A stretch of 64,000 bases of DNA from NCBI GenBank assembly GCA_026874595.1, contig CM049308.1, positions 96,210,624 through 96,274,623 of the forward strand. The letters run 5' to 3'. The notes beneath the pieces are model-generated. The model had not been told where the DNA came from. It worked only from the letters and a program-made list of their open reading frames with translations, and made no database searches. Shown piece by piece: positions 4,471 to 61,479 of the stretch; position 1 is the stretch's first letter, and each line of letters starts with the position of its first letter. Origin of the DNA: Sipunculus nudus (Eukaryota > Annelida > Sipuncula > Golfingiida > Sipunculidae). The translations under genes and the position numbers were made by a program.

Positions 4471-4476
4471 ACATAC

Positions 4477-19711: not shown

Positions 19712-22700
19712 TGTAGTTAAATGCTGATGTGCTCACACCTCTAGGTCACCTAGTCAACTTATCACTGTAGTAAGGTCAGTATACTGATGTGCTCACACCT
19801 CTAGGTCACCTAGTCAACTAATCAATGTAGTAAGGTCAGTATACTGATGTGCTCACACCTCTAGGTCACCTAGTCAACTAATCACTGTAGTAAGGTCAGT
19901 ATACTGATGTGCTCACTCCTCTAAGTCACCTAGTCAACTAATCACTGCAGTAAGGTCAGTATACTGATGTGCTCACACCTCTAGGTCACCTAGTCAACTA
20001 ATCACTGTAGTAAGGTCAGTATACTGATGTGCTTACACCTCTAGGTCACCTAGTCAACTAATCACTGCAGTAAGGTCAGTATACTGATGTGCTCACTCCT
20101 CTAGGTCACCTAGTCAACTAATCACTGCAGTAAGGTCAGTATACTGATGTGCTCACTCCTCTAGGTCACCTAGTCAACTAATCACTGCAGTAAGGTCAGT
20201 ATACTGATGTGCTCACAACTCTAGGTCACCTAGTCAACTAATCACTGCAGTAAGGTCAGTATACTGATGTGCTCACACCTCTAGGTCACCTAGTCAACTA
20301 ATCACTGCAGTAAGGTCAGTTTACTGATGTGCTCACACCTCTAGGTCACCTAGTCAACTAATCACTGCAGTAAGGTCAGTATAGTGATGTGCTCACACCT
20401 CTAGTTCACCTGGTCAACTAATCACTGCAGTAAGGTCAGTATAGTGATGTGCTCACACCTCTAGTTCACCTGGTCAACTAATCACTGCAGTAAGGTCAGT
20501 ATACTGATGTGCTCACACCTCTAGGTCACCTAGTCAACTAATCACTGTAGAAAGGTCAGTATACTGAGGTGCTCACACCTCTAGGTCACCTAGTCAACTA
20601 ATCACTGCAGTAAGGTCAGTTTACTGATGTGCTCACTCCTCTAGGTCACCTAGTCAACTAATCACTGCAGTAAGGTCAGTATACTGATGTGCTCACACCT
20701 CTAGGTCACCTAGTCAACTAATCACTGCAGTAAGGTCAGTATACTGATGTGCTCACTCCTCTAGGTCACCTAGTCAACTAATCACTGCAGTAAGGTCAGT
20801 ATACTGATGTGCTCACACCTCTAGGTCACCTAGTCAACTAATCACTGTTGTAAGGTCAGCATACTGATGTGCTCACACTTCTAGGTCACCTAGTCAACTA
20901 ATCACTGTAGTAAAGTCAGCATACTGATGTGCTCACACCTCTAGGTCACCTAGTCAACTAATCACTGTAGTAAGGTCAGTATACTGATGTGCTCACACCT
21001 CTAGGTCACCTAGTCAACTAATCACTGTAGTAAGGTCAGTATACTGATGTGCTCACACCTCTAGGTCACCTAGTCAACTAATCACTGCAGTAAGGTCAGC
21101 ATACTGATGTGCTCACATCTCTAGGTCACCTAGTCAACTAATCACTGTAGAAAGGTCAGTATACTGATGTGCTCACACCTCTAGGTCACCCAGTCAACTA
21201 ATCACTGTAGTAAGGTCAGTATACTGAGGTGCTCACACCTCTAGGTCTCCTAGTCAACTAATCACTGTAGTTAGGTCAGTATACTGATGTGCTCACTCCT
21301 CTAGGTCTCCTAGTCAACTAATCACTGCAGTAAGGTCAGTATACTGATGTGCTCACTCCTCTAGGTCACCTAGTCAACTAATCACTGCAGTAAGGTCAGT
21401 ATATTGATGTGCTCACTCCTCTAGGTCACCTAGTCAACTTATCACTGCAGTAAGGTCAGTATATTGATGTGCTCACTCCTCTAGGTCACCTAGTCAACTA
21501 ATCACTGCAGTAAGGTCAGCATACTGATGTGCTCACACCTCTAGGTCACCTAGTCAACTAATCACTGTAGTAAGGTCAGCATACTGATGTGCTCACACTT
21601 CTAGGTCACCTAGTCAACTAATCACTGTAGTAAAGTCAGCATACTGATGTGCTCACACCTCTAGGTCACCTAGTCAACAAATCACTGTAGTAAGGTCAGC
21701 ATACTGATGTGCTCACACCTCTAGGTCACCTAGTCAACTAATCACTGTAGTAAGGTCAGTATACTGATGTGCTCACACCTCTAGGTCACCTAGTCAACTT
21801 ATCACTGTAGTAAGGTCAGTATACTGATGTGCTCACACCTCTAGGTCACCTAGTCAACTTATCACTGTAGTAAGGTCAGTATACTGATGTGCTCACACCT
21901 CTAGGTCACCTAGTCAACTAATCACTGTAGTAAGGTCAGTATACTGATGTGCTCACACCTCTAGGTCACCTATTCAACTAATCACTGTAGTAAGGTCAGT
22001 ATACTGATGTGCTCACTCCTCTAGGTCACCTAGTCAACTAATCACTGTAGTAAGGTCAGTATACTGATGTGCTCACACCTCTAGGTCACCTAGTCAACTA
22101 ATCACTGTAGTAAGGTCAGTATACTGATGTGCTCACACCTCTAGGTCACCTAGTCAACTAATCACTGTAGTAAGGTCAGTATACTGATGTGCTCACACCT
22201 CTAGGTCACCTAGTCAACTAATCACTGTAGTAAGGTCAGTATACTGATGTGCTCACACCTCTAGGTCACCTAGTCAACTAATCACTGTAGTAAGGTCAGT
22301 ATACTGATGTGCTCACACCTCTAGGTCACCTAGTCAACTAATCACTGTAGTAAGGTCAGTATACTGATGTGCTCACACCTCTAGGTCACCTAGTCAACTA
22401 ATCACTGTAGTAAGGTCAGTATACTGATGTGCTCACACCTCTAGGTCACCTAGTCAACTAATCACTGTAGTAAGGTCAGTATACTGATGTGCTCACTCCT
22501 CTAGGTCACCTAGTCAACTAATCACTGTAGTAAGGTCAGTATACTGATGTGCTCACACCTCTAGGTCACCTAGTCAACTAATCACTGTAGTAAGGTCAGT
22601 ATACTGATGTGCTCACTCCTCTAGGTCACCTAGTCAACTAATCACTGCAGTAAGGTCAGTATACTGATGTGCTCACACCTCTAGGTCACCTAGTCAACTA

Positions 22701-24420
22701 ATCACTGCAGTAAGGTCAGTATACTGATGTGCTCACACCTCTAGGTCACCTAGTCAACTAATCACTGTAGTAAGGTCAGCATACTGTTGTGCTCACACCT
22801 CTAGGTCACCTAGTCAACTAATCACTGTAGTAAGGTCAGCATACTGATGTGCTCACACCTCTAGGTCACCTAGTCAACTAATCACTGTAGTAAGGTCAGC
22901 ATACTGATGTGCTCACACCTCTAGGTCACCTAGTCAACTTATCACTGTAGTTAGGTCAGCATACTGATGTGCTCACACCTCTAGGTCACCTAGTCAACTA
23001 ATCACTGTAGTAAGGTCAGTATACTGATGTGCTCACACCTCTAGGTCACCTAGTCAACTAATCACTGTAGTAAGGTCAGTATACTGATGTGCTCACACCT
23101 CTAGGTCACCTAGTCAACTAATCACTGTAGTAAGGTCAGTATATACTGATGTGCTCACACCTCTAGGCCACCTAGTCAACTAATCACTGTAGTAAGGTCA
23201 GTATACTGATGTGCTCACACCTCTAGGTCACCTAGTCAACTAATCACTGTAGTAAGGTCAGTATACTGATGTGCTCACACCTCTAGGTCACCTAGTCAAC
23301 TAATCACTGTAGTAAGGTCAGTATACTGATGTACTCACACCTCTAGGTCACCTAGTCAACTAATCACTGTAGTAAGGTCAGTATACTGATGTGCTCACTC
23401 CTCTAGGTCACCTAGTCAACTAATCACTGCAGTAAGGTCAGTATACTGATGTGCTCACACCTCTAGGTCACCTAGTCAACTAATCACTGCAGTAAGGTCA
23501 GTATACTGATGTGCTCACACTTCTAGGTCACCTAGTCAACTAATCACTGCAGTAAGGTCAGTATACTGATTTGCTCACACCTCTAGGTCACCTAGTCAAC
23601 TAATCACTGCAGTAAGGTCAGTATACTGATGTGCTCACACCTCTTGGTCACCTAGTCAACTAATCACTGTAGTAAGGTCAGTATACTGATGTGCTCACTC
23701 CTCTAGGTCACCTAGTCAACTAATCACTGTAGTAAGGTCAGTATACTGATGTGCTCACACCTCTAGGTCACCTAGTCAACTAATCACTGTAGTAAGGTCA
23801 GTATACTGATGTGCTCACACCTATAGGTCACCTAGTCAACTAATCACTGCAGTAAGGTCAGTATACTGATGTGCTCACACCTCTAGGTCACCTAGTCAAC
23901 TAATCACTGTAGTAAGGTCAGTATACTGATGTGCTCACACCTCTAGGTCACCTAGTCAACTAATCACTGCAGTAAGGTCAGTATACTGATGTGCTCACAC
24001 CTCTAGGTCACCTAGTCAACTAATCACTGTAGTAAGGTCAGTATACTGATGTGCTCACACCTCTAGGCCACCTAGTCAACTAATCACTGTAGTAAGGTCA
24101 GTATACTGATGGGCTCACACCTCTAGGTCACCTAGTCAACTAATCACTGTAGTAAGGTCAGTATACTGATGTGCTCACACCTCTAGGTCACCTAGTCAAC
24201 TAATCACTGTAGTAAGGTCAGTATACTGATGTACTCACACCTCTAGGTCACCTAGTCAACTAATCACTGTAGTAAGGTCAGTATACTGATGTGCTCACAA
24301 CTCTAGGTCACCTAGTCAACTAATCACTGCAGTAAGGTCAGTATACTGATGTGCTCACACCTCTAGGTCACCTAGTCAACTTATCACTGTAGTAAGGTCA
24401 GTATACTGATGTGCTCACTC
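19712..24420. repeat. Satellite, left domain: homogeneous 60-bp monomers, about 78 copies
   Basis: The unit is CTAGGTCACCTAGTCAACTA, ATCACTGTAGTAAGGTCAGT, ATACTGATGTGCTCACACCT, exactly 60 bases. Phase is kept without an indel from 19741 to about 23130, where two bases are inserted (ATATACTG), then again to 24420. Variable sites (CTGTAG or CTGCAG; CACACCT or CACTCCT; CAGTATA or CAGCATA) occur in runs of neighbouring units, a signature of unequal exchange or conversion. Each unit has two dyads (CTAGGTCACCTAG and TCAGTATACTGA) and two AGGTCA motifs. Confidence 0.97.
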
Positions 24421-27282
24421 CTCTAGGTCCCCTAGGCAACTAATTACTGTAGTTATGTCAGTACACTGATGCCCTCACTCCTCTTGGTCAACTAGTTGAC
24501 TAAACACTAAAGTTATGTCATTATACAGATATCCTCACTCCTCTAAGTCACCTACTCAGCTGATCACTGTAGTTATGTCATTCAAAAGATGCCCTCACTC
24601 CTCTAGGTCACCTAGTTGACTAAACACTGTAGTTATGTCATTATACAGATGCCCTCACTCCTCTAGGTCACCTATTCATCTGATCACTGTAGTTATGTCA
24701 GTATACTGAATTACTGATGCCCTCACTCCTCTAGGTTACCTAGTCAACTGATCACTGTAGTTATGTCATTATACAGATTCCCTCACTCCTCTAGGTTACC
24801 TAGTCGACTATTCACTGTAGTTATGTCATTATACAGATGCCCTCACTCCTCTAGGTCACCTAGTCAACTAATCACTGTAGTTATGTCATTATACAGATGC
24901 CCCCAATCCTCTAGGTCACCTAGTTGACTATTCACTGTAGTTATGTCATTATACAGATGCCCTCAATCCTCTAGGTCCTCTAGTTGACTTAACACTGTAG
25001 TTATGTCAGTTTACTGATGTCCTCAATCCTCTAGGTTACCTGGTCAACTGATCACATTATAAAGGTCAGTACCAGTATACATGCCCTCACTCCTCTAAGT
25101 CACCTATTCAGCTGAACACTGAAGTTATGTCAGTATACAGATGCCCTCACTCCTCTAGGTCACCTAGTTGACTATTCACTGTAGTTATGTCATTATACAG
25201 ATGCCCTCAATCCTCTAGGTCCTCTAGTTGACTAAACACTGTAGTTATGTCAGTTTACTGATGCCCTCAATCCTCTAGGTTACCTGGTCAACTGATCACA
25301 TTATAAAGGTCAGTACCAGTATACATGCCCTCACTCCTCAAAGTCACCTATTCAGCTGAACACTGAAGTTATGTCAGTATACAGATGCCCTCACTCCTTT
25401 AGGTCACCTAGTCAACTAATCACTGTAGTTATGTCATTATACAGATGCCCTCACTCCTCTAGGTCACCTAGTTGACTATTCACTGTAGTTATGTCATTAT
25501 ACAGATGCCCTCAATCCTCTAGGTCCTCTAGTTGACTAAACACTGTAGTTATGTCAGTTTACTGATGCCCTAAATCCTCTAGGTTACCTGGTCAACTGAT
25601 CACATTATAAAGGTCAGTACCAGTATACATGCCCTCACTCCTCTAAGTCACCTAGTCAAATAATCACTGTATTTATGTCATTATACAGATGCCCTCACTC
25701 CTCTAGGTCACCTAGTTGACTATTCACTGTAGTTATGTCATTATACAGATGCCCTCACTCCTCTAGGTCACCTAGTCAACTAATCACTGTAGTTATGTCA
25801 TTATACAGATGCCCTCACTCCTCTAGGTCACCTAGTTGACTATTCACTGTAGTTATGCCATTATACAGATGCCCTCAATCCTCTAGGTCCTCTAGTTGAC
25901 TAAACACTGTAGTTATGTCAGTTTACTGATGCCCTCAATCCTCTAGGTTACCTGGTCAACTGATCACATTATAAAGGTCAGTACCAGTATACATGCCCTC
26001 ACTCCTCTAAGTCACCTATTCAGCTGAACACTGAAGTTATGTCATTATACAGATGCCCTAACTCCTCTAGGTCCTCTAGTTGACTAAACACTGTAGTTAT
26101 GTCAGTTTACTGATGCCCTCAATCCTCTAGGTTACCTGGTCAACTGATCACATTATAAAAGGTCAGTACCAGTATACATGCCCTCACTCCTCTAAGTCAC
26201 CTATTCAGCTGAACACTGAAGTTATGTCAGTATACAGATGCCCTCACTCCTTTAGGTCACCTAGTCGACTATTCACTGTAGTTATGTCATTATACAGATG
26301 CCCTCAATCCTCTAGGTCCTCTAGTTGACTAAACACTGTAGTTATGTCAGTTTACTGATGCCCTCAATCCTCTAGGTTACCTGGTCAACTGATCACATTA
26401 TTAAGGTCAGTACCAGTATACATGCCCTCACTCCTCTAAGTCACCTATTCAGCTAAACACTGAAATTATGTCAGTATACAGATGCCCTCACTCCTCTAGG
26501 TCACCTAGTTGACTATTCACTGTAGTTATGTCATTATACAGATGCCCTCAATCCTCTAGGTCCTCTAGTTGAATGAACACTGTAGTTATGTCAGTTTACT
26601 GATGCCCTCAATCCTCTAGGTTACCTGGGCAACTGATCACATTATTAAGGTCAGTACCAGTATACATGCCCTCACTCCTCTAAGTCACCTATTCAGCTGA
26701 ACACTGAAGTTATGTCAGTATACAGATGCCCTAACTCCTCTAGGTCCTCTAGTTGACTAAACACTGTAGTTCTGTCAGTTTACTGATGCCCTCAATCCTC
26801 TAGGTTACCTGGTCAACTGATCACATTATAAAGGTCAGTACCAGTATACATGCCCTCACTCCTCTAAGTCACCTATTCAGCTGAACACTGAAGTTATGTC
26901 AGTATACAGATGCCCTCACTCCTTTAGGTCACCTAGTCGACTATTCACTGTAGTTATGTCATTATACAGATGCCCTTAATCCTCTAGGTCCTCTAGTTGA
27001 CTTAACACTGTAGTTATGTCAGTTTACTGATGCCCTCAATCCTCTAGGTTACCTGGTCAACTGATCACATTATAAAGGTCAGTACCAGTATACATGCCCT
27101 CACTCCTCAAAGTCACCTATTCAGCTGAACACTGAAGTTATGTCAGTATACAGATGCCCTCACTCCTCTAGGTCCTCTAGTTGACTAAACACTGTAGTTA
27201 TGTCAGTTTACTGATGCCCTCAATCCTCTAGGTTACCTGGTCAACTGATCACATTATAAAGGTCAGTACCAGTATACATGCC

Positions 27283-30200
27283 CTCTCCTCTAAGTCACCT
27301 ATTCAGCTGAACACTGTAGTTATGTCATTATACAGATGCCCTCACTCCTCTAGGTCACCTATTCAGCTGATCACTGTAGTTATGTCAGTATACTGAATTA
27401 CTGATGCCCTCAATCCTCTAGGTTTCTTAGTCAACTTATCACTGTAGTTATGTCATGTTACAGATTCCCTCACTCCTCTAGGTCACCTAGTCGACTATTC
27501 GCTGTAGTTATGTCAGTTTACTAATGCCCTCACTCCTCTAGGTCACCTAGTCAACTAATCACTGTAGTACTGTCATTATACAGATGCCCTCACTCCTCTA
27601 GGTCACCTAGTTGACTATTCACTGTAGTTATGTCATTATACAGATGCCCTCAATCCTCTAGGTCCTCTAGTTGACTAAACACTGTAGTTATGTCAGTTTA
27701 CTGATGCCCTCAATCCTCTAGGTTACCTGGTCAACTGATCACATTATAAAGGTCAGTACCAGCATACATGCCCTCACTCCTCTAAGTCACCTATTCAGCT
27801 GAACACTGAAGTTATGTCAGTATACAGATGCCCTCACTCCTCTAAGTCCTCTAGTTGACTAAACACTGTAGTTATGTCAGTTTACTGATGCCCTCAATCC
27901 TCTAGGTTACCTGGTCAACTGATCACATTATAAAGGTCAGTACCAGTATACATGCCCTCACTCCTCAAAGTCACCTATTCAGCTGAACACTGAAGTTATG
28001 TCAGTATACAGATGCCCTCACTCCTCTAGGTCCTCTAGTTGACTTAACACTGTAGTTATGTCAGTATACTGAATTACTGATGCCCTCAATCCTCTAGGTT
28101 ACTTAGTCAACTTATCACTGTAGTTATGTCATGTTACAGATTCCCTCACTCCTCTAGGTCACCTAGTCGACTATTCGCTGTAGTTATGTCAGTTTACTAA
28201 TGCCCTCACTCCTCTAGGTCACCTAGTCAACTAATCACTGTAGTACTGTCATTATACAGATGCCCTCACTCCTCTAGGTCACCTAGTTGACTATTCACTG
28301 TAGTTATGTCATTATACAGATGCCCTCAATCCTCTAGGTCCTCTAGTTGACTAAACACTGTAGTTATGTCAGTTTACTGATGCCCTCAATCCTCTAGGTT
28401 ACCTGGTCAACTGATCACATTATAAAGGTCAGTACCAGTATACATGCCCTCACTCCTCTAAGTTACCTATTCAGCTGAACACTGAAGTTATGTCAGTATA
28501 CAGATGCCCTCACTCCTTTAGGTCACCTATTCAGCTGATCACTGTAGTTATGTCAGTATACAGATGCCCTAACTCCTCTAGGTCCTCTAGTTGACTAAAC
28601 ACTGTAGTTCTGTCAGTTTACTGATGCCCTCAATCCTCTAGGTTACCTGGTCAACTGATCACATTATAAAGGTCAGTACCAGTATACATGCCCTCACTCC
28701 TCTAAGTCACCTATTCAGCTGAACACTGAAGTTATGTCAGTATACAGATGCCCTCACTCCTTTAGGTCACCTAGTCGACTATTCACTGTAGTTATGTCAT
28801 TATACAGATGCCCTCAATCCTCTAGGTCCTCTAGTTGACTAAACACTGTAGTTATGTCAGTTTACTGATGCCCTCAATCCTCTAGGTTACCTGGTCAACT
28901 GATCACATTATAAAGGTCAGTACCAGTATACATGCCCTCACTCCTCTAAGTCACCTATTTAGCTGAACACTGAAGTAATGTCAGTATACAGATGCCCTCA
29001 CTCCTCTAGGTCACCTAGTTGACTATTCACTGTAGTTATGTCATTATACAGATGCCCTCAATCCTCTAGGTCCTCTAGTTGACTAAACACTGTAGTTATG
29101 TCAGTTTACTGATGCCCTCCATCCTCTAGGTTACCTGGTCAACTGATCACATTATTAAGGTCAGTACCAGTATACATGCCCTCACTCCTCTAAGTCACCT
29201 ATTCAGCTGAACACTGAAGTTATGTCAGTATACAGATGCCCTAACTCCTCTAGGTCCTCTAGTTGACTAAACACTGTAGTTCTGTCAGTTTACTGATGCC
29301 CTCAATCCTCTAGGTTACCTGGTCAACTGATCACATTATAAAGGTCAGTACCAGTATACATGCCCTCACTCCTCTAAGTCACCTATTCAGCTGAACACTG
29401 AAGTTATGTCAGTATACAGATGCCCTCACTCCTTTAGGTCACCTAGTCGACTATTCACTGTAGTTATGTCATTATACAGATGCCCTCAATCCTCTAGGTC
29501 CTCTAGTTGACTAAACACTGTAGTTATGTCAGTTTACTGATGCCCTCAATCCTCTAGGTTACCTGGTCAACAGATCACATTATAAAGGTCAGTACCAGTA
29601 TACATGCCCTCACTCCTCTAAGTCACCTATTCAGCTGAACACTGAAGTTATGTCAGTATACAGATGCCCTCACTCCTCTAGGTCACCTAGTTGACTATTC
29701 ACTGTAGTTATGTCATTATACAGATGCCCTCAATCCTCTAGGTCCTCTAGTTGGCTAAACACTGTAGTTATGTCAGTTTACTGATGCCCTCAATCCTCTA
29801 GGTTACCTGGTCAACTGAACACATAATTAAGGTCAGTACCAGTATACATGCCCTCACTCCTCTAAGTCACCTATTCAGCTGAACACTGAAGTTATGTCAG
29901 TATACAGATGCCCTAACTCCTCTAGGTCCTCTAGTTGACTAAACACTGTAGTTCTGTCAGTTTACTGATGCCCTCAATCCTCTAGGTTACCTGGTCAACT
30001 GATCACATTATAAAGGTCAGTACCAGTATACATGCCCTCACTCCTCTAAGTCACCTATTCAGCTGAACACTGAAGTTATGTCAGTATACAGATGCCCTCA
30101 CTCCTTTAGGTCACCTAGTCGACTATTCACTGTAGTTATGTCATTATACAGATGCCCTCAATCCTCTAGGTCCTCTAGTTGACTAAACACTGTAGTTATG

Positions 30201-33200
30201 TCAGTTTACTGATGCCCTCAATCCTCTAGGTTACCTGGTCAACTGATCACATTATAAAGGTCAATACCAGTATACATGCCCTCACTCCTCAAAGTCACCT
30301 ATTCAGCTGAACACTGAAGTTATGTCAGTATACAGATGCCCTCACTCCTCTAGGTCCTCTAGTTGACTTAACACTGTAGTTATGTCAGTTTACTGATGCC
30401 CTCAATCCTCTAGGTTACCTGGTCAACTGATCACATTATAAAGGTCAGTACCAGTATACATGCCATCTCCTCTAAGTCACCTATTCAGCTGAACACTGTA
30501 GTTATGTCATTATACAGATGCCCTCACTGCTCTAGGTCACCTATTCAGCTGATCACTGTAGTTATGTCAGTATACTGAATTACTGATGCCCTCAATCCTC
30601 TAGGTTACTTAGTCAACTTAACACTGTAGTTATGTCATGTTACAGATTCCCTCACTCCTCTAGGTCACCTAGTCGACTATTCGCTGTAGTTATGTCAGTT
30701 TACTAATGCCCTCACTCCTCTAGGTCACCTAGTCAACTAATCACTGTAGTTATGTCATTATACAGATGCCCTTACTCCTCTAGGTCACCTAGTTGACTAT
30801 TCACTGTAGTTATGTCATTATACAGATGCCCTCAATCCTCTAGGTCCTCTAGTTGACTAAACACTGTAGTTATGTCAGTTTACTGATGCCCTCAATCCTC
30901 TAGGTTACCTGGTCAACTGATCACATTATAAAGGTCAGTACCAGTATACATGCCCTCACTCCTCTAAGTCACCTATTCAGCTGAACACTGAAGTTATGTC
31001 AGTATACAGATGCCCTCACTCCTTTAGGTCACCTATTCAGCTGATCACTGTAGTTATGTCAGTATACAGATGCCCTAACTCCTCTAGGTCCTCTAGTTGA
31101 CTAAACACTGTAGTTCTGTCAGTTTACTGATGCCCTCAATCCTCTAGGTTACCTGGTCAACTGATCACATTATAAAGGTCAGTACCAGTATACATGCCCT
31201 CACTCCTCTAAGTCACCTATTCAGCTGAACACTGAAGTTATGTCAGTATACAGATGCCCTCACTCCTTTAGGTCACCTAGTCGACTATTCACTGTAGTTA
31301 TGTCATTATACAGATGCCCTCAATCCTCTAGGTCCTCTAGTTGACTAAACACTGTAGTTATGTCAGTTTACTGATGCCCTCAATCCTCTAGGTTACCTGG
31401 TCAACTGATCACATTATAAAGGTCAGTACCAGTATACATGCCCTCACTCCTCTAAGTCACCTATTCAGCTGAACACTGAAGTTATGTCAGTATACAGATG
31501 CCCTCACTCCTCTAGGTCACCTAGTTGACTATTCACTGTAGTTATGTCATTATACAGATGCCCTCAATCCTCTAGGTCCTCTAGTTGACTAAACACTGTA
31601 GTTATGTCAGTTTACTGATGCCCTCAATCCTCTAGGTTACCTGGTCAACTGATCACATTATAAAGGTCAGTACCAGTATACATGCCCTCACTCCTCAAAG
31701 TCACCTATTCAGCTGAACACTGAAGTTATGTCAGTATACAGATGCCCTCACTCCTTTAGGTCACCTAGTCAACTAATCACTGTAGTTATGTCATTATACA
31801 GATGCCCTCACTCCTCTAGGTCACCTAGTTGACTATTCACTGTAGTTATGTCATTATACAGATGCCCTCAATCCTCTAGGTCCTCTAGTTGACTAAACAC
31901 TGTAGTTATGTCAGTTTACTGATGCCCTAAATCCTCTAGGTTACCTGGTCAACTGATCACATTATAAAGGTCAGTACCAGTATACATGCCCTCACTCCTC
32001 TAAGTCACCTAGTCAAATAATCACTGTATTTATGTCATTATACAGATGCCCTCACTCCTCTAGGTCACCTAGTTGACTATTCACTGTAGTTATGTCATTA
32101 TACAGATGCCCTCACTCCTCTAGGTCACCTAGTCAACTAATCACTGTAGTTATGTCATTATACAGATGCCCTCACTCCTCTAGGTCACCTAGTTGACTAT
32201 TCACTGTAGTTATGTCATTATACAGATGCCCTCAATCCTCTAGGTCCTCTAGTTGACTAAACACTGTAGTTATGTCAGTTTACTGATGCCCTCAATCCTC
32301 TAGGTTACCTGGTCAACTGATCACATTATTAAGGTCAGTACCAGTATACATGCCCTCACTCCTCTAAGTCACCTATTCAGCTAAACACTGAAGTTATGTC
32401 AGTATACAGATGCCCTCACTCCTCTAGGTCACCTAGTTGACTATTCACTGTAGTTATGTCATTATACAGATGCCCTCAATCCTCTAGGTCCTCTAGTTGA
32501 ATGAACACTGTAGTTATGTCAGTTTACTGATGCCCTCAATCCTCTAGGTTACCTGGGCAACTGATCACATTATTAAGGTCAGTACCAGTATACATGCCCT
32601 CACTCCTCTAAGTCACCTATTCAGCTGAACACTGAAGTTATGTCAGTATACAGATGCCCTAACTCCTCTAGGTCCTCTAGTTGACTAAACACTGTAGTTC
32701 TGTCAGTTTACTGATGCCCTCAATCCTCTAGGTTACCTGGTCAACTGATCACATTATAAAGGTCAGTACCAGTATACATGCCCTCACTCCTCTAAGTCAC
32801 CTATTCAGCTGAACACTGAAGTTATGTCAGTATACAGATGCCCTCACTCCTTTAGGTCACCTAGTCGACTATTCACTGTAGTTATGTCATTATACAGATG
32901 CCCTTAATCCTCTAGGTCCTCTAGTTGACTTAACACTGTAGTTATGTCAGTTTACTGATGCCCTCAATCCTCTAGGTTACCTGGTCAACTGATCACATTA
33001 TAAAGGTCAGTACCAGTATACATGCCCTCACTCCTCAAAGTCACCTATTCAGCTGAACACTGAAGTTATGTCAGTATACAGATGCCCTCACTCCTCTAGG
33101 TCCTCTAGTTGACTAAACACTGTAGTTATGTCAGTTTACTGATGCCCTCAATCCTCTAGGTTACCTGGTCAACTGATCACATTATAAAGGTCAGTACCAG

Positions 33201-33210
33201 TATACATGCC
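27283..33210. repeat. Satellite super-unit 1 (shortened, 5,928 bp)
   Basis: Marked from the first CTCTCCTCTAAG deletion variant of type a to the next. It has landmark a at 27283, c (ACTTAACACTGTAG followed by TATACTGAATTACTG) at 28051, and b at 30465. Compared with super-unit 2 it lacks 1,952 bases between a and c and 429 bases between b and the next a (7880 = 5928 + 1952; 8309 = 7880 + 429). Confidence 0.85.
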
Positions 33211-36200
33211 CTCTCCTCTAAGTCACCTATTCAGCTGAACACTGTAGTTATGTCATTATACAGATGCCCTCACTCCTCTAGGTCACCTATTCAGCTGATC
33301 ACTGTAGTTATGTCAGTATACTGAATTACTGATGCCCTCAATCCTCTAGGTTTCTTAGTCAACTTATCACTGTAGTTATGTCATGTTACAGATTCCCTCA
33401 CTCCTCTAGGTCACCTAGTCGACTATTCGCTGTAGTTATGTCAGTTTACTAATGCCCTCACTCCTCTAGGTCACCTAGTCAACTAATCACTGTAGTACTG
33501 TCATTATACAGATGCCCTCACTCCTCTAGGTCACCTAGTTGACTATTCACTGTAGTTATGTCATTATACAGATGCCCTCAATCCTCTAGGTCCTCTAGTT
33601 GACTAAACACTGTAGTTATGTCAGTTTACTGATGCCCTCAATCCTCTAGGTTACCTGGTCAACTGATCACATTATAAAGGTCAGTACCAGTATACATGCC
33701 CTCACTCCTCTAAGTCACCTATTCAGCTGAACACTGAAGTTATGTCAGTATACAGATGCCCTCACTCCTTTAGGTCACCTATTCAGCTGATCACTGTAGT
33801 TATGTCAGTATACAGATGCCCTAACTCCTCTAGGTCCTCTAGTTGACTAAACACTGTAGTTCTGTCAGTTTACTGATGCCCTCAATCCTCTAGGTTACCT
33901 GGTCAACTGATCACATTATAAAGGTCAGTACCAGTATACATGCCCTCACTCCTCTAAGTCACCTATTCAGCTGAACACTGAAGTTATGTCAGTATACAGA
34001 TGCCCTCACTCCTTTAGGTCACCTAGTCGACTATTCACTGTAGTTATGTCATTATACAGATGCCCTCAATCCTCTAGGTCCTCTAGTTGACTAAACACTG
34101 TAGTTATGTCAGTTTACTGATGCCCTCAATCCTCTAGGTTACCTGGTCAACTGATCACATTATAAAGGTCAGTACCAGTATACATGCCCTCACTCCTCTA
34201 AGTCACCTATTTAGCTGAACACTGAAGTTATGTCAGTATACAGATGCCCTCACTCCTCTAGGTCACCTAGTTGACTATTCACTGTAGTTATGTCATTATA
34301 CAGATGCCCTCAATCCTCTAGGTCCTCTAGTTGACTAAACACTGTAGTTATGTCAGTTTACTGATGCCCTCCATCCTCTAGGTTACCTGGTCAACTGATC
34401 ACATTATTAAGGTCAGTACCAGTATACATGCCCTCACTCCTCTAAGTCACCTATTCAGCTAAACACTGAAGTTATGTCAGTATACAGATGCCCTAACTCC
34501 TCTAGGTCCTCTAGTTGACTAAACACTGTAGTTCTGTCAGTTTACTGATGCCCTCAATCCTCTAGGTTACCTGGTCAACTGATCACATTATAAAGGTCAG
34601 TACCAGTATACATGCCCTCACTCCTCTAAGTCACCTATTCAGCTGAACACTGAAGTTATGTCAGTATACAGATGCCCTCACTCCTTTAGGTCACCTAGTC
34701 GACTATTCACTGTAGTTATGTCATTATACAGATGCCCTCAATCCTCTAGGTCCTCTAGTTGACTAAACACTGTAGTTATGTCAGTTTACTGATGCCCTCA
34801 ATCCTCTAGGTTACCTGGTCAACTGATCACATTATAAAGGTCAGTACCAGTATACATGCCCTCACTCCTCTAAGTCACCTATTCAGCTGAACACTGAAGT
34901 TATGTCAGTATACAGATGCCCTCACTCCTCTAGGTCACCTAGTTGACTATTCACTGTAGTTATGTCATTATACAGATGCCCTCAATCCTCTAGGTCCTCT
35001 AGTTGACTAAACACTGTAGTTATGTCAGTTTACTGATGCCCTCAATCCTCTAGGTTACCTGGTCAACTGATCACATTATAAAGGTCAGTACCAGTATACA
35101 TGCCCTCACTCCTCAAAGTCACCTATTCAGCTGAACACTGAAGTTATGTCAGTATACAGATGCCCTCACTCCTTTAGGTCACCTAGTCAACTAATCACTG
35201 TAGTTATGTCATTATACAGATGCCCTCACTCCTCTAGGTCACCTAGTTGACTATTCACTGTAGTTATGTCATTATACAGATGCCCTCAATCCTCTAGGTC
35301 CTCTAGTTGACTAAACACTGTAGTTATGTCAGTTTACTGATGCCCTCAATCCTCTAGGTTACCTGGTCAACTGAACACATAATTAAGGTCAGTACCAGTA
35401 TACATGCCCTCACTCCTCTAAGTCACCTATTCAGCTGAACACTGAAGTTATGTCAGTATACAGATGCCCTAACTCCTCTAGGTCCTCTAGTTGACTAAAC
35501 ACTGTAGTTCTGTCAGTTTACTGATGCCCTCAATCCTCTAGGTTACCTGGTCAACTGATCACATTATAAAGGTCAGTACCAGTATACATGCCCTCACTCC
35601 TCTAAGTCACCTATTCAGCTGAACACTGAAGTTATGTCAGTATACAGATGCCCTCACTCCTTTAGGTCACCTAGTCGACTATTCACTGTAGTTATGTCAT
35701 TATACAGATGCCCTCAATCCTCTAGGTCCTCTAGTTGACTAAACACTGTAGTTATGTCAGTTTACTGATGCCCTCAATCCTCTAGGTTACCTGGTCAACT
35801 GATCACATTATAAAGGTCAGTACCAGTATACATGCCCTCACTCCTCAAAGTCACCTATTCAGCTGAACACTGAAGTTATGTCAGTATACAGATGCCCTCA
35901 CTCCTCTAGGTCCTCTAGTTGACTTAACACTATAGTTATGTCAGTATACTGAATTACTGATGCCCTCAATCCTCTAGGTTACTTAGTCAACTTATCACTG
36001 TAGTTATGTCATGTTACAGATTCCCTCACTCCTCTAGGTCACCTAGTCGACTATTCGCTGTAGTTATGTCAGTTTACTAATGCCCTCACTCCTCTAGGTC
36101 ACCTAGTCAACTAATCACTGTAGTACTGTCATTATACAGATGCCCTCACTCCTCTAGGTCACCTAGTTGACTATTCACTGTAGTTATGTCATTATACAGA

Positions 36201-41519: not shown

Positions 41520-44500
41520 CTCTCCTCTAAGTCACCTATTCAGCTGAACACTGTAGTTATGTCATTATACAGATGCCCTCACTCCTCTAGGTCACCTATT
41601 CAGCTGATCACTGTAGTTATGTCAGTATACTGAATTACTGATGCCCTCAATCCTCTAGGTTTCTTAGTCAACTTATCACTGTAGTTATGTCATGTTACAG
41701 ATTCCCTCACTCCTCTAGGTCACCTAGTCGACTATTCGCTGTAGTTATGTCAGTTTACTAATGCCCTCACTCCTCTAGGTCACCTAGTCAACTAATCACT
41801 GTAGTACTGTCATTATACAGATGCCCTCACTCCTCTAGGTCACCTAGTTGACTATTCACTGTAGTTATGTCATTATACAGATGCCCTCAATCCTCTAGGT
41901 CCTCTAGTTGACTAAACACTGTAGTTATGTCAGTTTACTGATGCCCTCAATCCTCTAGGTTACCTGGTCAACTGATCACATTATAAAGGTCAGTACCAGT
42001 ATACATGCCCTCACTCCTCTAAGTCACCTATTCAGCTGAACACTGAAGTTATGTCAGTATACAGATGCCCTCACTCCTTTAGGTCACCTATTCAGCTGAT
42101 CACTGTAGTTATGTCAGTATACAGATGCCCTAACTCCTCTAGGTCCTCTAGTTGACTAAACACTGTAGTTCTGTCAGTTTACTGATGCCCTCAATCCTCT
42201 AGGTTACCTGGTCAACTGATCACATTATAAAGGTCAGTACCAGTATACATGCCCTCACTCCTCTAAGTCACCTATTCAGCTGAACACTGAAGTTATGTCA
42301 GTATACAGATGCCCTCACTCCTTTAGGTCACCTAGTCGACTATTCACTGTAGTTATGTCATTATACAGATGCCCTCAATCCTCTAGGTCCTCTAGTTGAC
42401 TAAACACTGTAGTTATGTCAGTTTACTGATGCCCTCAATCCTCTAGGTTACCTGGTCAACTGATCACATTATAAAGGTCAGTACCAGTATACATGCCCTC
42501 ACTCCTCTAAGTCACCTATTTAGCTGAACACTGAAGTTATGTCAGTATACAGATGCCCTCACTCCTCTAGGTCACCTAGTTGACTATTCACTGTAGTTAT
42601 GTCATTATACAGATGCCCTCAATCCTCTAGGTCCTCTAGTTGACTAAACACTGTAGTTATGTCAGTTTACTGATGCCCTCCATCCTCTAGGTTACCTGGT
42701 CAACTGATCACATTATTAAGGTCAGTACCAGTATACATGCCCTCACTCCTCTAAGTCACCTATTCAGCTGAACACTGAAGTTATGTCAGTATACAGATGC
42801 CCTAACTCCTCTAGGTCCTCTAGTTGACTAAACACTGTAGTTCTGTCAGTTTACTGATGCCCTCAATCCTCTAGGTTACCTGGTCAACTGATCACATTAT
42901 AAAGGTCAGTACCAGTATACATGCCCTCACTCCTCTAAGTCACCTATTCAGCTGAACACTGAAGTTATGTCAGTATACAGATGCCCTCACTCCTTTAGGT
43001 CACCTAGTCGACTATTCACTGTAGTTATGTCATTATACAGATGCCCTCAATCCTCTAGGTCCTCTAGTTGACTAAACACTGTAGTTATGTCAGTTTACTG
43101 ATGCCCTCAATCCTCTAGGTTACCTGGTCAACTGATCACATTATAAAGGTCAGTACCAGTATACATGCCCTCACTCCTCTAAGTCACCTATTCAGCTGAA
43201 CACTGAAGTTATGTCAGTATACAGATGCCCTCACTCCTCTAGGTCACCTAGTTGACTATTCACTGTAGTTATGTCATTATACAGATGCCCTCAATCCTCT
43301 AGGTCCTCTAGTTGACTAAACACTGTAGTTATGTCAGTTTACTGATGCCCTCAATCCTCTAGGTTACCTGGTCAACTGATCACATTATAAAGGTCAGTAC
43401 CAGTATACATGCCCTCACTCCTCAAAGTCACCTATTCAGCTGAACACTGAAGTTATGTCAGTATACAGATGCCCTCACTCCTTTAGGTCACCTAGTCAAC
43501 TAATCACTGTAGTTATGTCATTATACAGATGCCCTCACTCCTCTAGGTCACCTAGTTGACTATTCACTGTAGTTATGTCATTATACAGATGCCCTCAATC
43601 CTCTAGGTCCTCTAGTTGACTAAACACTGTAGTTATGTCAGTTTACTGATGCCCTCAATCCTCTAGGTTACCTGGTCAACTGAACACATAATTAAGGTCA
43701 GTACCAGTATACATGCCCTCACTCCTCTAAGTCACCTATTCAGCTGAACACTGAAGTTATGACAGTATACAGATGCCCTAACTCCTCTAGGTCCTCTAGT
43801 TGACTAAACACTGTAGTTCTGTCAGTTTACTGATGCCCTCAATCCTCTAGGTTACCTGGTCAACTGATCACATTATAAAGGTCAGTACCAGTATACATGC
43901 CCTCACTCCTCTAAGTCACCTATTCAGCTGAACACTGAAGTTATGTCAGTATACAGATGCCCTCACTCCTTTAGGTCACCTAGTCGACTATTCACTGTAG
44001 TTATGTCATTATACAGATGCCCTCAATCCTCTAGGTCCTCTAGTTGACTAAACACTGTAGTTATGTCAGTTTACTGATGCCCTCAATCCTCTAGGTTACC
44101 TGGTCAACTGATCACATTATAAAGGTCAGTACCAGTATACATGCCCTCACTCCTCAAAGTCACCTATTCAGCTGAACACTGAAGTTATGTCAGTATACAG
44201 ATGCCCTCACTCCTCTAGGTCCTCTAGTTGACTTAACACTATAGTTATGTCAGTATACTGAATTACTGATGCCCTCAATCCTCTAGGTTACTTAGTCAAC
44301 TTATCACTGTAGTTATGTCATGTTACAGATTCCCTCACTCCTCTAGGTCACCTAGTCGACTATTCGCTGTAGTTATGTCAGTTTACTAATGCCCTCACTC
44401 CTCTAGGTCACCTAGTCAACTAATCACTGTAGTACTGTCATTATACAGATGCCCTCACTCCTCTAGGTCACCTAGTTGACTATTCACTGTAGTTATGTCA

Positions 44501-47500
44501 TTATACAGATGCCCTCAATCCTCTAGGTCCTCTAGTTGACTAAACACTGTAGTTATGTCAGTTTACTGATGCCCTCAATCCTCTAGGTTACCTGGTCAAC
44601 TGATCACATTATAAAGGTCAGTACCAGTATACATGCCCTCACTCCTCTAAGTCACCTATTCAGCTGAACACTGAAGTTATGTCAGTATACAGATGCCCTC
44701 ACTCCTTTAGGTCACCTATTCAGCTGATCACTGTAGTTATGTCAGTATACAGATGCCCTAACTCCTCTAGGTCCTCTAGTTGACTAAACACTGTAGTTCT
44801 GTCAGTTTACTGATGCCCTCAATCCTCTAGGTTACCTGGTCAACTGATCACATTATAAAGGTCAGTACCAGTATACATGCCCTCACTCCTCTAAGTCACC
44901 TATTCAGCTGAACACTGAAGTTATGTCAGTATACAGATGCCCTCACTCCTTTAGGTCACCTAGTCGACTATTCACTGTAGTTATGTCATTATACAGATGC
45001 CCTCAATCCTCTAGGTCCTCTAGTTGACTAAACACTGTAGTTATGTCAGTTTACTGATGCCCTCAATCCTCTAGGTTACCTGGTCAACTGATCACATTAT
45101 AAAGGTCAGTACCAGTATACATGCCCTCACTCCTCTAAGTCACCTATTTAGCTGAACACTGAAGTTATGTCAGTATACAGATGCCCTCACTCCTCTAGGT
45201 CACCTAGTTGACTATTCACTGTAGTTATGTCATTATACAGATGCCCTCAATCCTCTAGGTCCTCTAGTTGACTAAACACTGTAGTTATGTCAGTTTACTG
45301 ATGCCCTCCATCCTCTAGGTTACCTGGTCAACTGATCACATTATTAAGGTCAGTACCAGTATACATGCCCTCACTCCTCTAAGTCACCTATTCAGCTGAA
45401 CACTGAAGTTATGTCAGTATACAGATGCCCTAACTCCTCTAGGTCCTCTAGTTGACTAAACACTGTAGTTCTGTCAGTTTACTGATGCCCTCAATCCTCT
45501 AGGTTACCTGGTCAACTGATCACATTATAAAGGTCAGTACCAGTATACATGCCCTCACTCCTCTAAGTCACCTATTCAGCTGAACACTGAAGTTATGTCA
45601 GTATACAGATGCCCTCACTCCTTTAGGTCACCTAGTCGACTATTCACTGTAGTTATGTCATTATACAGATGCCCTCAATCCTCTAGGTCCTCTAGTTGAC
45701 TAAACACTGTAGTTATGTCAGTTTACTGATGCCCTCAATCCTCTAGGTTACCTGGTCAACTGATCACATTATAAAGGTCAGTACCAGTATACATGCCCTC
45801 ACTCCTCTAAGTCACCTATTCAGCTGAACACTGAAGTTATGTCAGTATACAGATGCCCTCACTCCTCTAGGTCACCTAGTTGACTATTCACTGTAGTTAT
45901 GTCATTATACAGATGCCCTCAATCCTCTAGGTCCTCTAGTTGGCTAAACACTGTAGTTATGTCAGTTTACTGATGCCCTCAATCCTCTAGGTTACCTGGT
46001 CAACTGAACACATAATTAAGGTCAGTACCAGTATACATGCCCTCACTCCTCTAAGTCACCTATTCAGCTGAACACTGAAGTTATGTCAGTATACAGATGC
46101 CCTAACTCCTCTAGGTCCTCTAGTTGACTAAACACTGTAGTTCTGTCAGTTTACTGATGCCCTCAATCCTCTAGGTTACCTGGTCAACTGATCACATTAT
46201 AAAGGTCAGTACCAGTATACATGCCCTCACTCCTCTAAGTCACCTATTCAGCTGAACACTGAAGTTATGTCAGTATACAGATGCCCTCACTCCTTTAGGT
46301 CACCTAGTCGACTATTCACTGTAGTTATGTCATTATACAGATGCCCTCAATCCTCTAGGTCCTCTAGTTGACTAAACACTGTAGTTATGTCAGTTTACTG
46401 ATGCCCTCAATCCTCTAGGTTACCTGGTCAACTGATCACATTATAAAGGTCAGTACCAGTATACATGCCCTCACTCCTCAAAGTCACCTATTCAGCTGAA
46501 CACTGAAGTTATGTCAGTATACAGATGCCCTCACTCCTCTAGGTCCTCTGGTTGACTTAACACTGTAGTTATGTCAGTTTACTGATGCCCTCAATCCTCT
46601 AGGTTACCTGGTCAACTGATCACATTATAAAGGTCAGTACCAGTATACATGCCCTCTCCTCTAAGTCACCTATTCAGCTGAACACTGTAGTTATGTCATT
46701 ATACAGATGCCCTCACTGCTCTAGGTCACCTATTCAGCTGATCACTGTAGTTATGTCAGTATACTGAATTACTGATGCCCTCAATCCTCTAGGTTACTTA
46801 GTCAACTTAACACTGTAGTTATGTCATGTTACAGATTCCCTCACTCCTCTAGGTCACCTAGTCGACTATTCGCTGTAGTTATGTCAGTTTACTAATGCCC
46901 TCACTCCTCTAGGTCACCTAGTCAACTAATCACTGTAGTTATGTCATTATACAGATGCCCTTACTCCTCTAGGTCACCTAGTTGACTATTCACTGTAGTT
47001 ATGTCATTATACAGATGCCCTCAATCCTCTAGGTCCTCTAGTTGACTAAACACTGTAGTTATGTCAGTTTACTGATGCCCTCAATCCTCTAGGTTACCTG
47101 GTCAACTGATCACATTATAAAGGTCAGTACCAGTATACATGCCCTCACTCCTCTAAGTCACCTATTCAGCTGAACACTGAAGTTATGTCAGTATACAGAT
47201 GCCCTCACTCCTTTAGGTCACCTATTCAGCTGATCACTGTAGTTATGTCAGTATACAGATGCCCTAACTCCTCTAGGTCCTCTAGTTGACTAAACACTGT
47301 AGTTCTGTCAGTTTACTGATGCCCTCAATCCTCTAGGTTACCTGGTCAACTGATCACATTATAAAGGTCAGTACCAGTATACATGCCCTCACTCCTCTAA
47401 GTCACCTATTCAGCTGAACACTGAAGTTATGTCAGTATACAGATGCCCTCACTCCTTTAGGTCACCTAGTCGACTATTCACTGTAGTTATGTCATTATAC

Positions 47501-50500
47501 AGATGCCCTCAATCCTCTAGGTCCTCTAGTTGACTAAACACTGTAGTTATGTCAGTTTACTGATGCCCTCAATCCTCTAGGTTACCTGGTCAACTGATCA
47601 CATTATAAAGGTCAGTACCAGTATACATGCCCTCACTCCTCTAAGTCACCTATTCAGCTGAACACTGAAGTTATGTCAGTATACAGATGCCCTCACTCCT
47701 CTAGGTCACCTAGTTGACTATTCACTGTAGTTATGTCATTATACAGATGCCCTCAATCCTCTAGGTCCTCTAGTTGACTAAACACTGTAGTTATGTCAGT
47801 TTACTGATGCCCTCAATCCTCTAGGTTACCTGGTCAACTGATCACATTATTAAGGTCAGTACCAGTATACATGCCCTCACTCCTCTAAGTCACCTATTCA
47901 GCTGAACACTGAAGTTATGTCAGTATACAGATGCCCTAACTCCTCTAGGTCCTCTAGTTGACTAAACACTGTAGTTCTGTCAGTTTACTGATGCCCTCAA
48001 TCCTCTAGGTTACCTGGTCAACTGATCACATTATAAAGGTCAGTACCAGTATACATGCCCTCACTCCTCTAAGTCACCTATTCAGCTGAACACTGAAGTT
48101 ATGTCAGTATACAGATGCCCTCACTCCTTTAGGTCACCTAGTCGACTATTCACTGTAGTTATGTCATTATACAGATGCCCTCAATCCTCTAGGTCCTCTA
48201 GTTGACTAAACACTGTAGTTATGTCAGTTTACTGATGCCCTCACTCCTCTAGGTTACCTGGTCAACTGATCACATTATAAAGGTCAGTACCAGTATACAT
48301 GCCCTCACTCCTCTAAGTCACCTATTCAGCTGAACACTGAAGTTATGTCAGTATACAGATGCCCTAACTCCTCTAGGTCCTCTAGTTGACTAAACACTGT
48401 AGTTCTGTCAGTTTACTGATGCCCTCAATCCTCTAGGTTACCTGGTCAACTGATCACATTATAAAGGTCAGTACCAGTATACATGCCCTCACTCCTCTAA
48501 GTCACCTATTTAGCTGAACACTGAAGTTATGTCAGTATACAGATGCCCTCACTCCTTTAGGTCACCTAGTCGACTATTCACTGTAGTTATGTCATTATAC
48601 AGATGCCCTCAATCCTCTAGGACCTCTAGTTGACTAAACACTGTAGTTATGTCAGTTTACTGATGCCCTCAATCCTCTAGGTTACCTGGTCAACTGATCA
48701 CATTATAAAGGTCAGTACCAGTATACATGCCCTCACTCCTCTAAGTCACCTATTTAGCTGAACACTGAAGTTATGTCAGTATACAGATGCCCTCACTCCT
48801 CTAGGTCACCTAGTTGACTATTCACTGTAGTTATGTCATTATACAGATGCCCTCAATCCTCTAGGTCCTCTAGTTGACTAAACACTGTAGTTATGCAGTT
48901 TACTGATGCCCTCAATCCTCTAGGTTACCTGGTCAACTGATCACATTATTAAGGTCAGTACCAGTATACATGCCCTCACTCCTCTAAGTCACCTATTCAG
49001 CTGAACACTGAAGTTATGTCAGTATACAGATGCCCTAACTCCTCTAGGTCCTCTAGTTGACTAAACACTGTAGTTATGTCAGTTTACTGATGCCCTCAAT
49101 CCTCTAGGTTACCTGGTCAACTGATCACATTATAAAGGTCAGTACCAGTATACATGCCCTCACTCCTCTAAGTCACCTATTCAGCTGAACACTGAAGTTA
49201 TGTCAGTATACAGATGCCCTCACTCCTTTAGGTCACCTAGTCGACTATTCACTGTAGTAATGTCATTATACAGATGCCCTCAATCCTCTAGGTCCTCTAG
49301 TTGACTAAACACTGTAGTTCTGTCAGTTTACTGATGCCCTCAATCCTCTAGGTTACCTGGTCAACTGATCACATTATAAAGGTCAGTACCAGTATACATG
49401 CCCTCACTCCTCTAAGTCACCTATTCAGCTGAACACTGAAGTTATGTCAGTATACAGATGCCCTCACTCCTTTAGGTCACCTAGTCGACTATTCACTGTA
49501 GTTATGTCATTATACAGATGCCCTCAATCCTCTAGGTCCTCTAGTTGACTAAACACTGTAGTTATGTCAGTTTACTGATGCCCTCAATCCTCTAGGTTAC
49601 CTGGTCAACTGATCACATTATAAAGGTCAGTACCAGTATACATGCCCTCACTCCTCTAAGTCACCTATTTAGCTGAACACTGAAGTTATGTCAGTATACA
49701 GATGCCCTCACTCCTCTAGGTCACCTAGTTGACTATTCACTGTAGTTATGTCATCATACAGATGCCCTCAATCCTCTAGGTCCTCTAGTTGACTAAACAC
49801 TGTAGTTATGTCAGTTTACTGATGCCCTCAATCCTCTAGGTTACCTGGTCAACTGATCACATTATTAAGGTCAGTACCAGTATACATGCCCTCACTCCTC
49901 TAAGTCACCTATTCAGCTGAACACTGAAGTTATGTCAGTATACAGATGCCCTAACTCCTCTAGGTCCTCTAGTTGACTAAACACTGTAGTTCTGTCAGTT
50001 TACTGATGCCCTCAATCCTCTAGGTTACCTGGTCAACTGATCACATTATAAAGGTCAGTACCAGTATACATGCCCTCACTCCTCTAAGTCACCTATTCAG
50101 CTGAACACTGAAGTTATGTCAGTATACAGATGCCCTCACTCCTTTAGGTCACCTAGTCGACTATTCACTGTAGTTATGTCATTATACAGATGCCCTCAAT
50201 CCTCTAGGTCCTCTAGTTGACTAAACACTGTAGTTATGTCAGTTTACTGATGCCCTCAATCCTCTAGGTTACCTGGTCAACTGATCACATTATAAAGGTC
50301 AGTACCAGTATACATGCCCTCACTCCTCTAAGTCACCTATTCAGCTGAACACTGAAGTTATGTCAGTATACAGATGCCCTCACTCCTCTAGGTCACCTAG
50401 TTGACTATTCACTGTAGTTATGTCATTATACAGATGCCCTCAATCCTCTAGGTCCTCTAGTTGACTAAACACTGTAGTTATGTCAGTTTACTGATGCCCT

Positions 50501-54100: not shown

Positions 54101-54960
54101 GCCCTCACTCCTCTAGGTCACCTAGTCGACTATTCACTGTAGTTATGTCATTATACAGATGCCCTCACTCCTCTAGGTCCTCTAGTTGACTAAACACTGT
54201 AGTTATGTCAGTTTACTGATGCCCTCAATCCTCTAGGTTACCTGGTCAACTGATCACATTATTAAGGTCAGTACCAGTATACATGCCCTCACTCCTCTAA
54301 GTCACCTATTCAGCTGATCACTGTAGTTATGTCAGTATACAGATGCCCTCACTCCTCTAGGTCACCTAGTTGACTAAACACTGTAGTTATGTCAGTTTAC
54401 TGATGCCCTCAATCCTCTAGGTTACCTGGTCAACTGATCACATTATTAAGGTCAGTACCAGTATACATGCCCTCACTCCTCTAAGTCACCTATTCAGCTG
54501 ATCACTGTAGTTATGTCAGTATACTGATGCCCTCACTCCTCTAGGTCAACTAGTCAACTAATCACTGTAGTTATGTCAGTTTACTGATGCCCTCAATCCT
54601 CTAGGTTACCATGTCAACTGATCACATTATTAAGGTCAGTACCAGTATACATGCCCTCACTCCTCTAGGTCATCTATTCAGCTGATCACTGTAGGTTATG
54701 TCAGTATACTGATGCCCTCACGCGTCTAGGTCACCTAGTCAGTTGATTACTGAAGTTATGTCAGTTTACTGATGCCCTCAATCCTCTAGGTTACCATGTC
54801 AACTGATCACATTATTAAGGTCAGTACCAGTATACATGCCCTCACTCCTCTAGGTCATCTATTCAGCTGATCACTGTAGGTTATGTCAGTAAACTGATGC
54901 CCTCACGCGTCTAGGTCACCTAGTCAGTTGATTACTGAAGTTATGTCAGTTTACTGATGC

Positions 54961-56320
54961 CCTCAATCCTGTATTAAGGTCAGTACCAGTATACTGATGT
55001 GCTCATTCCTAGGTTACCTAGCTGACTGATCACTGTTGCTAGGTCAGTATACTGATGCCCTCATGCGTCTAGGTCACCTAGTCAGCTGATCACTGTAGTT
55101 TGATTAGTAGCTGATGTGTTAATTCCTCTAGGTGACCTAGTCAGCTGATCACTGAAGTTGGGTCAGTATACTGAAGTGTTCACTCCTCTAGGTCACCTAT
55201 TCGACTGATCACTGTAGCTAGGTCAGTATACTGATGCTCTCACTCCTCTAGGTGACCTAGTCAGCTGATCACTGTAGTCAGGTCAGTATACTGACGTGCT
55301 CACTCCTGTAGGTCACCTAGTTGACTGATCACTGTAGCTAGGTCAGTATACTGATGCTCTCACTCCTCTAGGTGACCAAGTCAACTAATCACTGTAGTTA
55401 GGTCAGTATACTGACGTGTTCACTCCTCTAGGTCACCTAGTCGACTGATCACTGTAGCTAGGTCAGTATACTGATGCTCTCACTCCTCTAGGTGACCTAG
55501 TCAGCTGATCACTGTAGTCAGGTCAGTATACTGACGTGCTCACTCCTGTAGGTCACCTAGTTGACTGATCACTGTAGCTAGGTCAGTATACTGATGCTCT
55601 CACTCCTCTAGGTGACCTAGTCAACTAATCACTGTAGTTAGGTCAGTATACTGACGTGTTCACTCCTCTAGGTCATCTAGTCGACTGATCACTGTAGCTA
55701 GGTCAGTATACTGATGCTCTCACTCCTCTAGGTGACCTAGTCAGCTGATCACTGTAGTCAGGTCAGTATACTGACGTGCTCACTCCTGTAGGTCACCTAG
55801 TTGACTGATCACTGTAGCTAGGTCAGTATACTGATGCTCTCACTCCTCTAGGTGACCTAGTCAACTAATCACTGTAGTTAGGTCAGTATACTGACGTGTT
55901 CACCCCTCTAGGTCACCTAGTCGACTGATCACTGTAGCTAGGTCAGTATACTGATGCTCTCACTCCTCTAGGTGACCTAGTCAGGTGATAACTGTAGTCA
56001 GGTCAGTATACTGACGTGCTCACTCCTGTAGGTCACCTAGTTGACTGATCACTGTAGCTAGGTCAGTATACTGATGCTCTCACTCCTCTAGGTGACCTGG
56101 TCAGCTGATCACTGTAGTTAGGTCAGTATACTGACGTGCTCACTCCTCTAGGTCACCTAGTCGACTGATCACTGTAGCTAGGTCAGTATACTGATGCTCT
56201 CACTCCTCTAGGTGACCTAGTCAGCTGATCACTGTAGTCAGGTCAGTATACTGACGTGCTCACTCCTGTAGGTCACCTAGTCAACTGATCACTGTAGTCA
56301 GGTCAGTGTATAGATGTCCT
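54961..56320. repeat. Satellite, right domain: 240-bp tetramer of 60-bp monomers
   Basis: Monomers again keep exact 60-base phase from about 55130. Four types recur in order every 240 bases (starts near 55261, 55501, 55741, 55981, 56221): TCAGCTGATCACTGTAGTCA, TTGACTGATCACTGTAGCTA, TCAACTAATCACTGTAGTTA, TCGACTGATCACTGTAGCTA. The dyad alternates CTAGGTGACCTAG and TAGGTCACCTAG between neighbours. TCAGTATACTGA is intact in most units. Confidence 0.94.
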
Positions 56321-61385: not shown

Positions 61386-61479
61386 GGGAATGACTTCACA
61401 TGTGACTAAAATATACTGACACTTGGCATATTTATTGTTTCTTCCATCTAACAATCCACAATCTTGTTGAAGATGTTGG

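Follow-up and report, generated by a model that had tools for sequence, protein, structure and literature searches.

The first coding intron of EHBP1 in the annelid Sipunculus nudus contains a giant minisatellite, a single uninterrupted head-to-tail array of a 60-bp unit that runs for about 36,600 bases. We consider it very probable that this array is private to its locus, has grown by in-register exchange and is tolerated through splicing. The window, that is, the whole stretch of DNA analyzed, comprises 64,000 nucleotides (GenBank assembly GCA_026874595.1, contig CM049308.1, positions 96,210,624 to 96,274,623), and positions below refer to it; the array occupies 19732-56318.

The host gene and its first coding intron

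The coding exons flanking the array are the following:

59754-59854, minus strand, coding part of the ATG exon of EHBP1, ending in phase 2
4477-4534, minus strand, coding exon 2 of EHBP1, 58 nt
2928-3077, minus strand, coding exon 3 of EHBP1, 150 nt

Read on the minus strand (59854-59754, 4534-4477, 3077-2928), they join in frame to encode 103 amino acids, and the splice-site dinucleotides are present. The Pfam family NT-C2, described as "N-terminal C2 in EEIG1 and EHBP1 proteins," matched residues 12-104 (5.3e-12) across both exon joins, the query being a 105-residue version that is two residues too long at its end. The gene is presumably EHBP1 rather than EEIG1, a choice that follows the human N-terminus. 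The exons are single-copy, as the 105-residue query matched three places in the assembly, all of them the exons within the window. A PDB search with the EHBP1 N-terminus gave no match up to E=1.

An earlier note on this DNA had described EHBP1 exons joining in phase across the array, and this is borne out by their position on one contig and by the NT-C2 match that crosses the joins. The note was also right to place the array within a conserved gene's intron; "first intron" is better replaced with "first coding intron," as the ATG exon is itself preceded by an acceptor-like site. The array-bearing intron measures 55,219 bp, 73% of which is tandem repeat.

Organization of the array

Wrap-around alignment resolved the array into 602 units, 130 of them distinct, the final one being a 22-bp terminal fragment; 601 units (129 distinct) end by 56318. 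Unit lengths were 60 bp (464 units), 64 bp (109), 68 bp (11) or other (18). Such a unit of tens of base pairs, repeated head to tail, is that of a minisatellite. Tandem Repeats Finder (TRF) likewise reported a single array from 19732, with a right end between 54970 and 56325 depending on the period, and gave periods of 60 bp (578 copies, score 35278), 428 bp, and 244 bp. No reverse-strand monomer was matched in the window by two 28-mer patterns at up to 6 mismatches. The large nested array of the earlier note was confirmed, with coordinates that had overshot the regular array by 20 bp at its left end and by 2 bp at its right end, and its three domains of ~60-bp monomers (homogeneous, higher-order, and 240-bp) correspond to domains A, B, and C:

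19732-24413, plus strand, domain A, 78 near-uniform 60-bp units with little higher order
24414-54961, plus strand, domain B, 500 units with 184-bp (BAC) and 244-bp (DBAC) higher-order units
54962-55001, plus strand, truncated unit of 40 bp where domain B gives way to domain C (wrap-around alignment)
55002-56318 (start approximate), plus strand, domain C, 22 units with 120/240-bp higher-order units

Unit types, designated by letters, are average-linkage clusters at 4 edits. Type E and its close variants make up domain A, with 96.2% identity at lag 60. In domain B, the 184-bp and 244-bp higher-order units consist of three and four monomers, respectively; DBAC, found 72 times, alternates with BAC without a preceding D, found 32 times, and the pattern is broken seven times by an LKHI cassette and three times by its OHI variant. 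The periods of 184, 244, and 428 bp are explained by the longer units, type A at 64 bp and types K and O at 68 bp. Domain C consists of type J alternating with M or P. A degenerate unit in the left flank scored 40, compared with a maximum of 38 among 300 shuffles, and the right flank was without one (score of 22 against a shuffle mean of 19.9). Decay of units would therefore apply to the left edge alone; decay at both edges is not established.

The organization is that of a higher-order repeat, in which multimonomer blocks are more alike than neighboring monomers. In the four blocks of domain B between 30000 and 55000, identity was 0.725 to 0.794 at lag 244 versus 0.621 to 0.663 at lag 60. The order was reversed in block 24000-30000 (0.651 at lag 244 versus 0.690 at lag 60) because this block takes in the end of domain A. 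A deeper tier, overlooked in the earlier note, is a 7.6-kb block duplicated in tandem within domain B:

32085-39722, plus strand, first copy of the tandem segmental duplication, lag 8309
40394-48031, plus strand, second copy of the tandem segmental duplication, lag 8309

The two copies are 99.37% identical across 7638 bp. Further ungapped blocks were found at lag 7880 (4754 bp, 98.97%) and lag 4521 (4653 bp, 99.01%), and the high-identity multi-kilobase lags in the array are 2746, 4521, 7880, and 8309 bp. A tandem block of such identity is the type of region in which assemblers gain or lose copies, and the array might for this reason be an assembly artifact with a wrong copy number or a wrong gene junction. 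We regard this as very improbable, as the window has no N, the domains are structurally different and merge gradually into distinct flanks, and the exons on either side are single-copy in the assembly.

The variation among units differs between the domains. Of the 73 E-type 60-mers in domain A, 32 are distinct, and their mean pairwise distance is 0.034; the main types of domain B have mean pairwise distances of 0.011 to 0.028, with 10 to 14 distinct sequences among 81 to 114. From this, we infer that domain B was amplified later and in large blocks and domain A by smaller steps. The array would have begun with the tandem duplication of a single 60-bp sequence; blocks of three to four units would have been duplicated next and then blocks of several kilobases, probably driven by in-register unequal exchange or by gene conversion between misaligned copies. 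Units of 60, 64, or 68 bp make up 584 of the 602, so the register was kept, which favors homology-based exchange over end joining. The array would be transcribed within the EHBP1 pre-mRNA and spliced out, and it is probably near neutral for the most part. One private intronic locus thus displays several duplication tiers in readable order.

Confinement to one locus

We searched the 1.43-Gb assembly with three patterns, two of 28 bases (2 and 3 mismatches) and a degenerate one of 33 places (2 mismatches). Assembly-wide matches equaled those in the window for all three (205 of 205, 177 of 177, and 474 of 474), all in forward orientation, and reversed control patterns gave 0 matches. The array is therefore confined to the window at the thresholds used, at which the patterns together recover 478 of the 602 units; similarly diverged relatives elsewhere would escape them, and assembly gaps might conceal further copies. 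A single genomic place, within the same limits, again accords with a minisatellite.

That the array is a centromeric or pericentromeric satellite partly seated in a gene was rejected on these counts, and we consider it exceedingly improbable. Its nested higher-order organization does resemble that of centromeric satellites generally, and neither of the tested contig ends carries a telomere run, as a terminal centromere might have it. A monomer abundant at other loci or chromosomes, however, is not what we found: the three patterns match nothing beyond the window, a search of the array for the CENP-B box gave no match, and the array is seated within a gene, with 1.67 Mb remaining to the end of its 97.9-Mb contig. 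The appeal to centromeric satellites in the earlier note is thus unsupported, the monomer search pointing to a locus-specific array at the thresholds used. Nested higher-order repeats need not imply a centromere, which corrects an inference made from a single window. Nor were dispersed copies of the unit seen, as would be expected of a repeat carried by Helitrons of the mollusc type with their dispersed carrier, judging from the unit alone.

Large arrays elsewhere in the genome

We surveyed twenty 8-kb stretches on contigs C3 to C6, placed nonrandomly at chosen round coordinates. Tandem repeats with a period of at least 10 covered 47,612 of the 160,000 bases (29.8%). The share was 16% in the 14 internal stretches (18,086 of 112,000 bases) and 71% in five stretches from the last 3 Mb of contig C3 (28,348 of 40,000 bases); a stretch near the other end of C3 had 1,178 of 8,000 bases. 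Density was uneven, with just 189 bases in one of the five distal stretches and fewer than 1,300 in 11 of the 14 internal ones. An array longer than 4.5 kb was present in 6 of the 20 stretches.

Several of these arrays were followed further. On contig C3, a 27-bp array was present in six of six probes between 96.940 and 97.025 Mb and seems to span at least 85 kb, and a 48-bp array at 96.50 Mb was found in none of eight surrounding probes and is hence under 25 kb. All 82 matches to a 78-bp array fell inside 97.489-97.505 Mb of C3, in two clusters ~10.6 kb apart with the same variant order; these look like duplicates, which would be a large-block duplication as in the main array. For a 44-bp array, 24 of 24 matches lay inside 30.001-30.005 Mb of contig C4, and for the 47-bp array next to exon 2 of EHBP1 (see below), 12 of 12 lay inside the window, so that each of the three other arrays tested (78, 44, and 47 bp) occupies a single place. 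The EHBP1 array itself lies in the repeat-dense distal portion of its chromosome. Large single-place arrays are common in this genome, and it is striking yet ordinary there. There are apparently many such loci, especially near a chromosome end, and they would suit the study of how minisatellites originate, acquire tiers, and are tolerated by splicing.

Other repeats and contigs were noted in passing. A 287/288-bp tandem repeat occurs both in the window (61461-62761) and in a sampled C4 stretch (3347-5474), with a near-identical consensus start, and is therefore dispersed, unlike the main array. AT-rich repeats that look alike, with TTGAA/CAACTTA motifs, lie at the two ends of contig C3, neither of which has a telomere run; (TTAGGG)8 runs near 404 kb of contig C2 were among the matches listed. 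Ten stop-free matches to the COX1 family lie on small contigs (C60 to C89 and C123), and one of them was read by eye as a cbb3-type oxidase, which would suggest that these matches are bacterial oxidases and that bacterial contigs are present in the assembly.

Splice sites on the two strands of the array

Thresholds for splice sites were taken from the real ones, with the exon-1 donor at 3.54 and both real acceptors at 10 of 15 pyrimidines, using an untrained splice-site matrix. Counting donors that score at least 3.5 and acceptors with at least 10 pyrimidines in 15, we found 0 donors and 12 acceptors on the sense strand of the array, and 190 donors and 923 acceptors on the antisense strand. 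Such counts would be expected if splicing acted as an orientation filter, allowing intronic arrays of tens of kilobases only where the sense strand is without competitive splice sites, an idea we think unlikely. Looser thresholds do reveal sites on the sense strand (296 donors of at least 2 and 352 acceptors with at least 9 pyrimidines). Its silence at the stricter ones is not significant, since 659 of 798 tandemized 60-mers from the flanking intron (82.6%) were equally silent at near-identical thresholds (no sense donor of at least 3.5 and no acceptor with at least 11 pyrimidines in 15), and the splice-poor sense strand of the array is therefore weak evidence. The idea motivates a genome-wide count over intronic arrays.

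Possible functions of the array

No result demands a chromatin or transcript-level role for the array, and motif counts and low CpG are the sole positive hints. The motif is AGGTCA, which we take to be a nuclear-receptor half-site and of which 428 plus-strand copies occur in 600 units (146 in domain A, 251 in B, and 31 in C). It is quite unlikely that these hundreds of copies serve as an enhancer or a factor sink. Any motif turns frequent through amplification alone, and AGGTCA thins where amplification was strongest (251 in the 500 units of domain B versus 146 in the 78 units of domain A), which weakens the reading as a nuclear-receptor array; in addition, units of types B, C, and D read ATGTCA at the second half-site, and those of types A, B, and C have a changed first half-site.

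The array might also be a heterochromatic or transcript-level device that slows or gates EHBP1 transcription, as has been proposed for the gigantic satellite-filled introns of Drosophila Y genes, and the large share of tandem repeat in the intron would fit this. CpG observed/expected is 0.0 in domain A and 0.05 in domain B, against 0.24 and 0.23 to the left and right. PMC6508621 reports transcription of the satellites in the kl-3 and kl-5 introns and their dependence on dedicated RNA-binding proteins. The array is, however, far smaller than the megabase introns of Drosophila, low CpG may merely mirror the unit sequence, and the frequency of large arrays genome-wide speaks against a device peculiar to a single gene; we judge such a device highly unlikely.

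Comparison with known intronic arrays

The locus-private minisatellite of EHBP1 is a further case of intronic tandem arrays already known in kind. Human intronic variable-number tandem repeats (VNTRs), as presented in PMC8096271, are alike in having tandem units of more than 6 bp at a single place in introns, including first introns, and may hold enhancers or alter splicing. The EHBP1 array differs in its 36.6 kb and several tiers, and it is known from one assembly, whereas the name VNTR needs length variation. The gigantic introns of Drosophila kl-3 and kl-5 (PMC6508621) likewise place long tandem arrays within protein-coding genes, but these are simple satellites, megabases in extent, in male-fertility genes on the Y chromosome, in contrast to 36.6 kb of a private 60-bp unit. 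Euchromatic tandem families of Tribolium castaneum are similar in their noncentromeric higher-order structure and intronic repeats; the TCAST families, according to PMC5844308, are dispersed through the genome and mainly single repeats, whereas the EHBP1 array occupies a single place. In Caenorhabditis elegans, an intronic minisatellite has been linked to splicing, according to PMC4039745.

Minisatellites next to exons 2 and 3

Three smaller arrays lie close to coding exons 2 and 3:

3097-4138, minisatellite with 17.4 copies of a 60-bp unit whose sequence is unlike that of the main array, ~20 bp between its end and the acceptor of exon 3
4537-5350, minus strand, 47-bp minisatellite, 17.5 copies (TRF), with repeats of the 3' splice acceptor and of the first part of exon 2
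5349-7110, minisatellite with a 45-bp unit and higher-order periods of 232 and 474 bp, within the array-bearing intron

Exon 3 (2928-3077) has minisatellites ~20 bp from either splice site (2414-2909 and 3097-4138). In the 47-bp array, tandem copies span the intron-exon boundary: it holds 11 TTACAG sites, including the true acceptor, and its units run on into the start of exon 2. Its last unit is the acceptor actually belonging to the 55-kb intron. It has the structure called "mirages" in amphioxus, where, according to PMC3087553, Adh3 data and globin RT-PCR indicate no interference with regular splicing. The likeness lies in the repetition of an intron end with an exon start, and the main array is not concerned. 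Compared with amphioxus BflGb6, for which PMC3087553 gives 6 and 3 units in two haplotypes, the EHBP1 array with its 17.5 TRF copies is longer in units, and this side finding may interest more than the main array.
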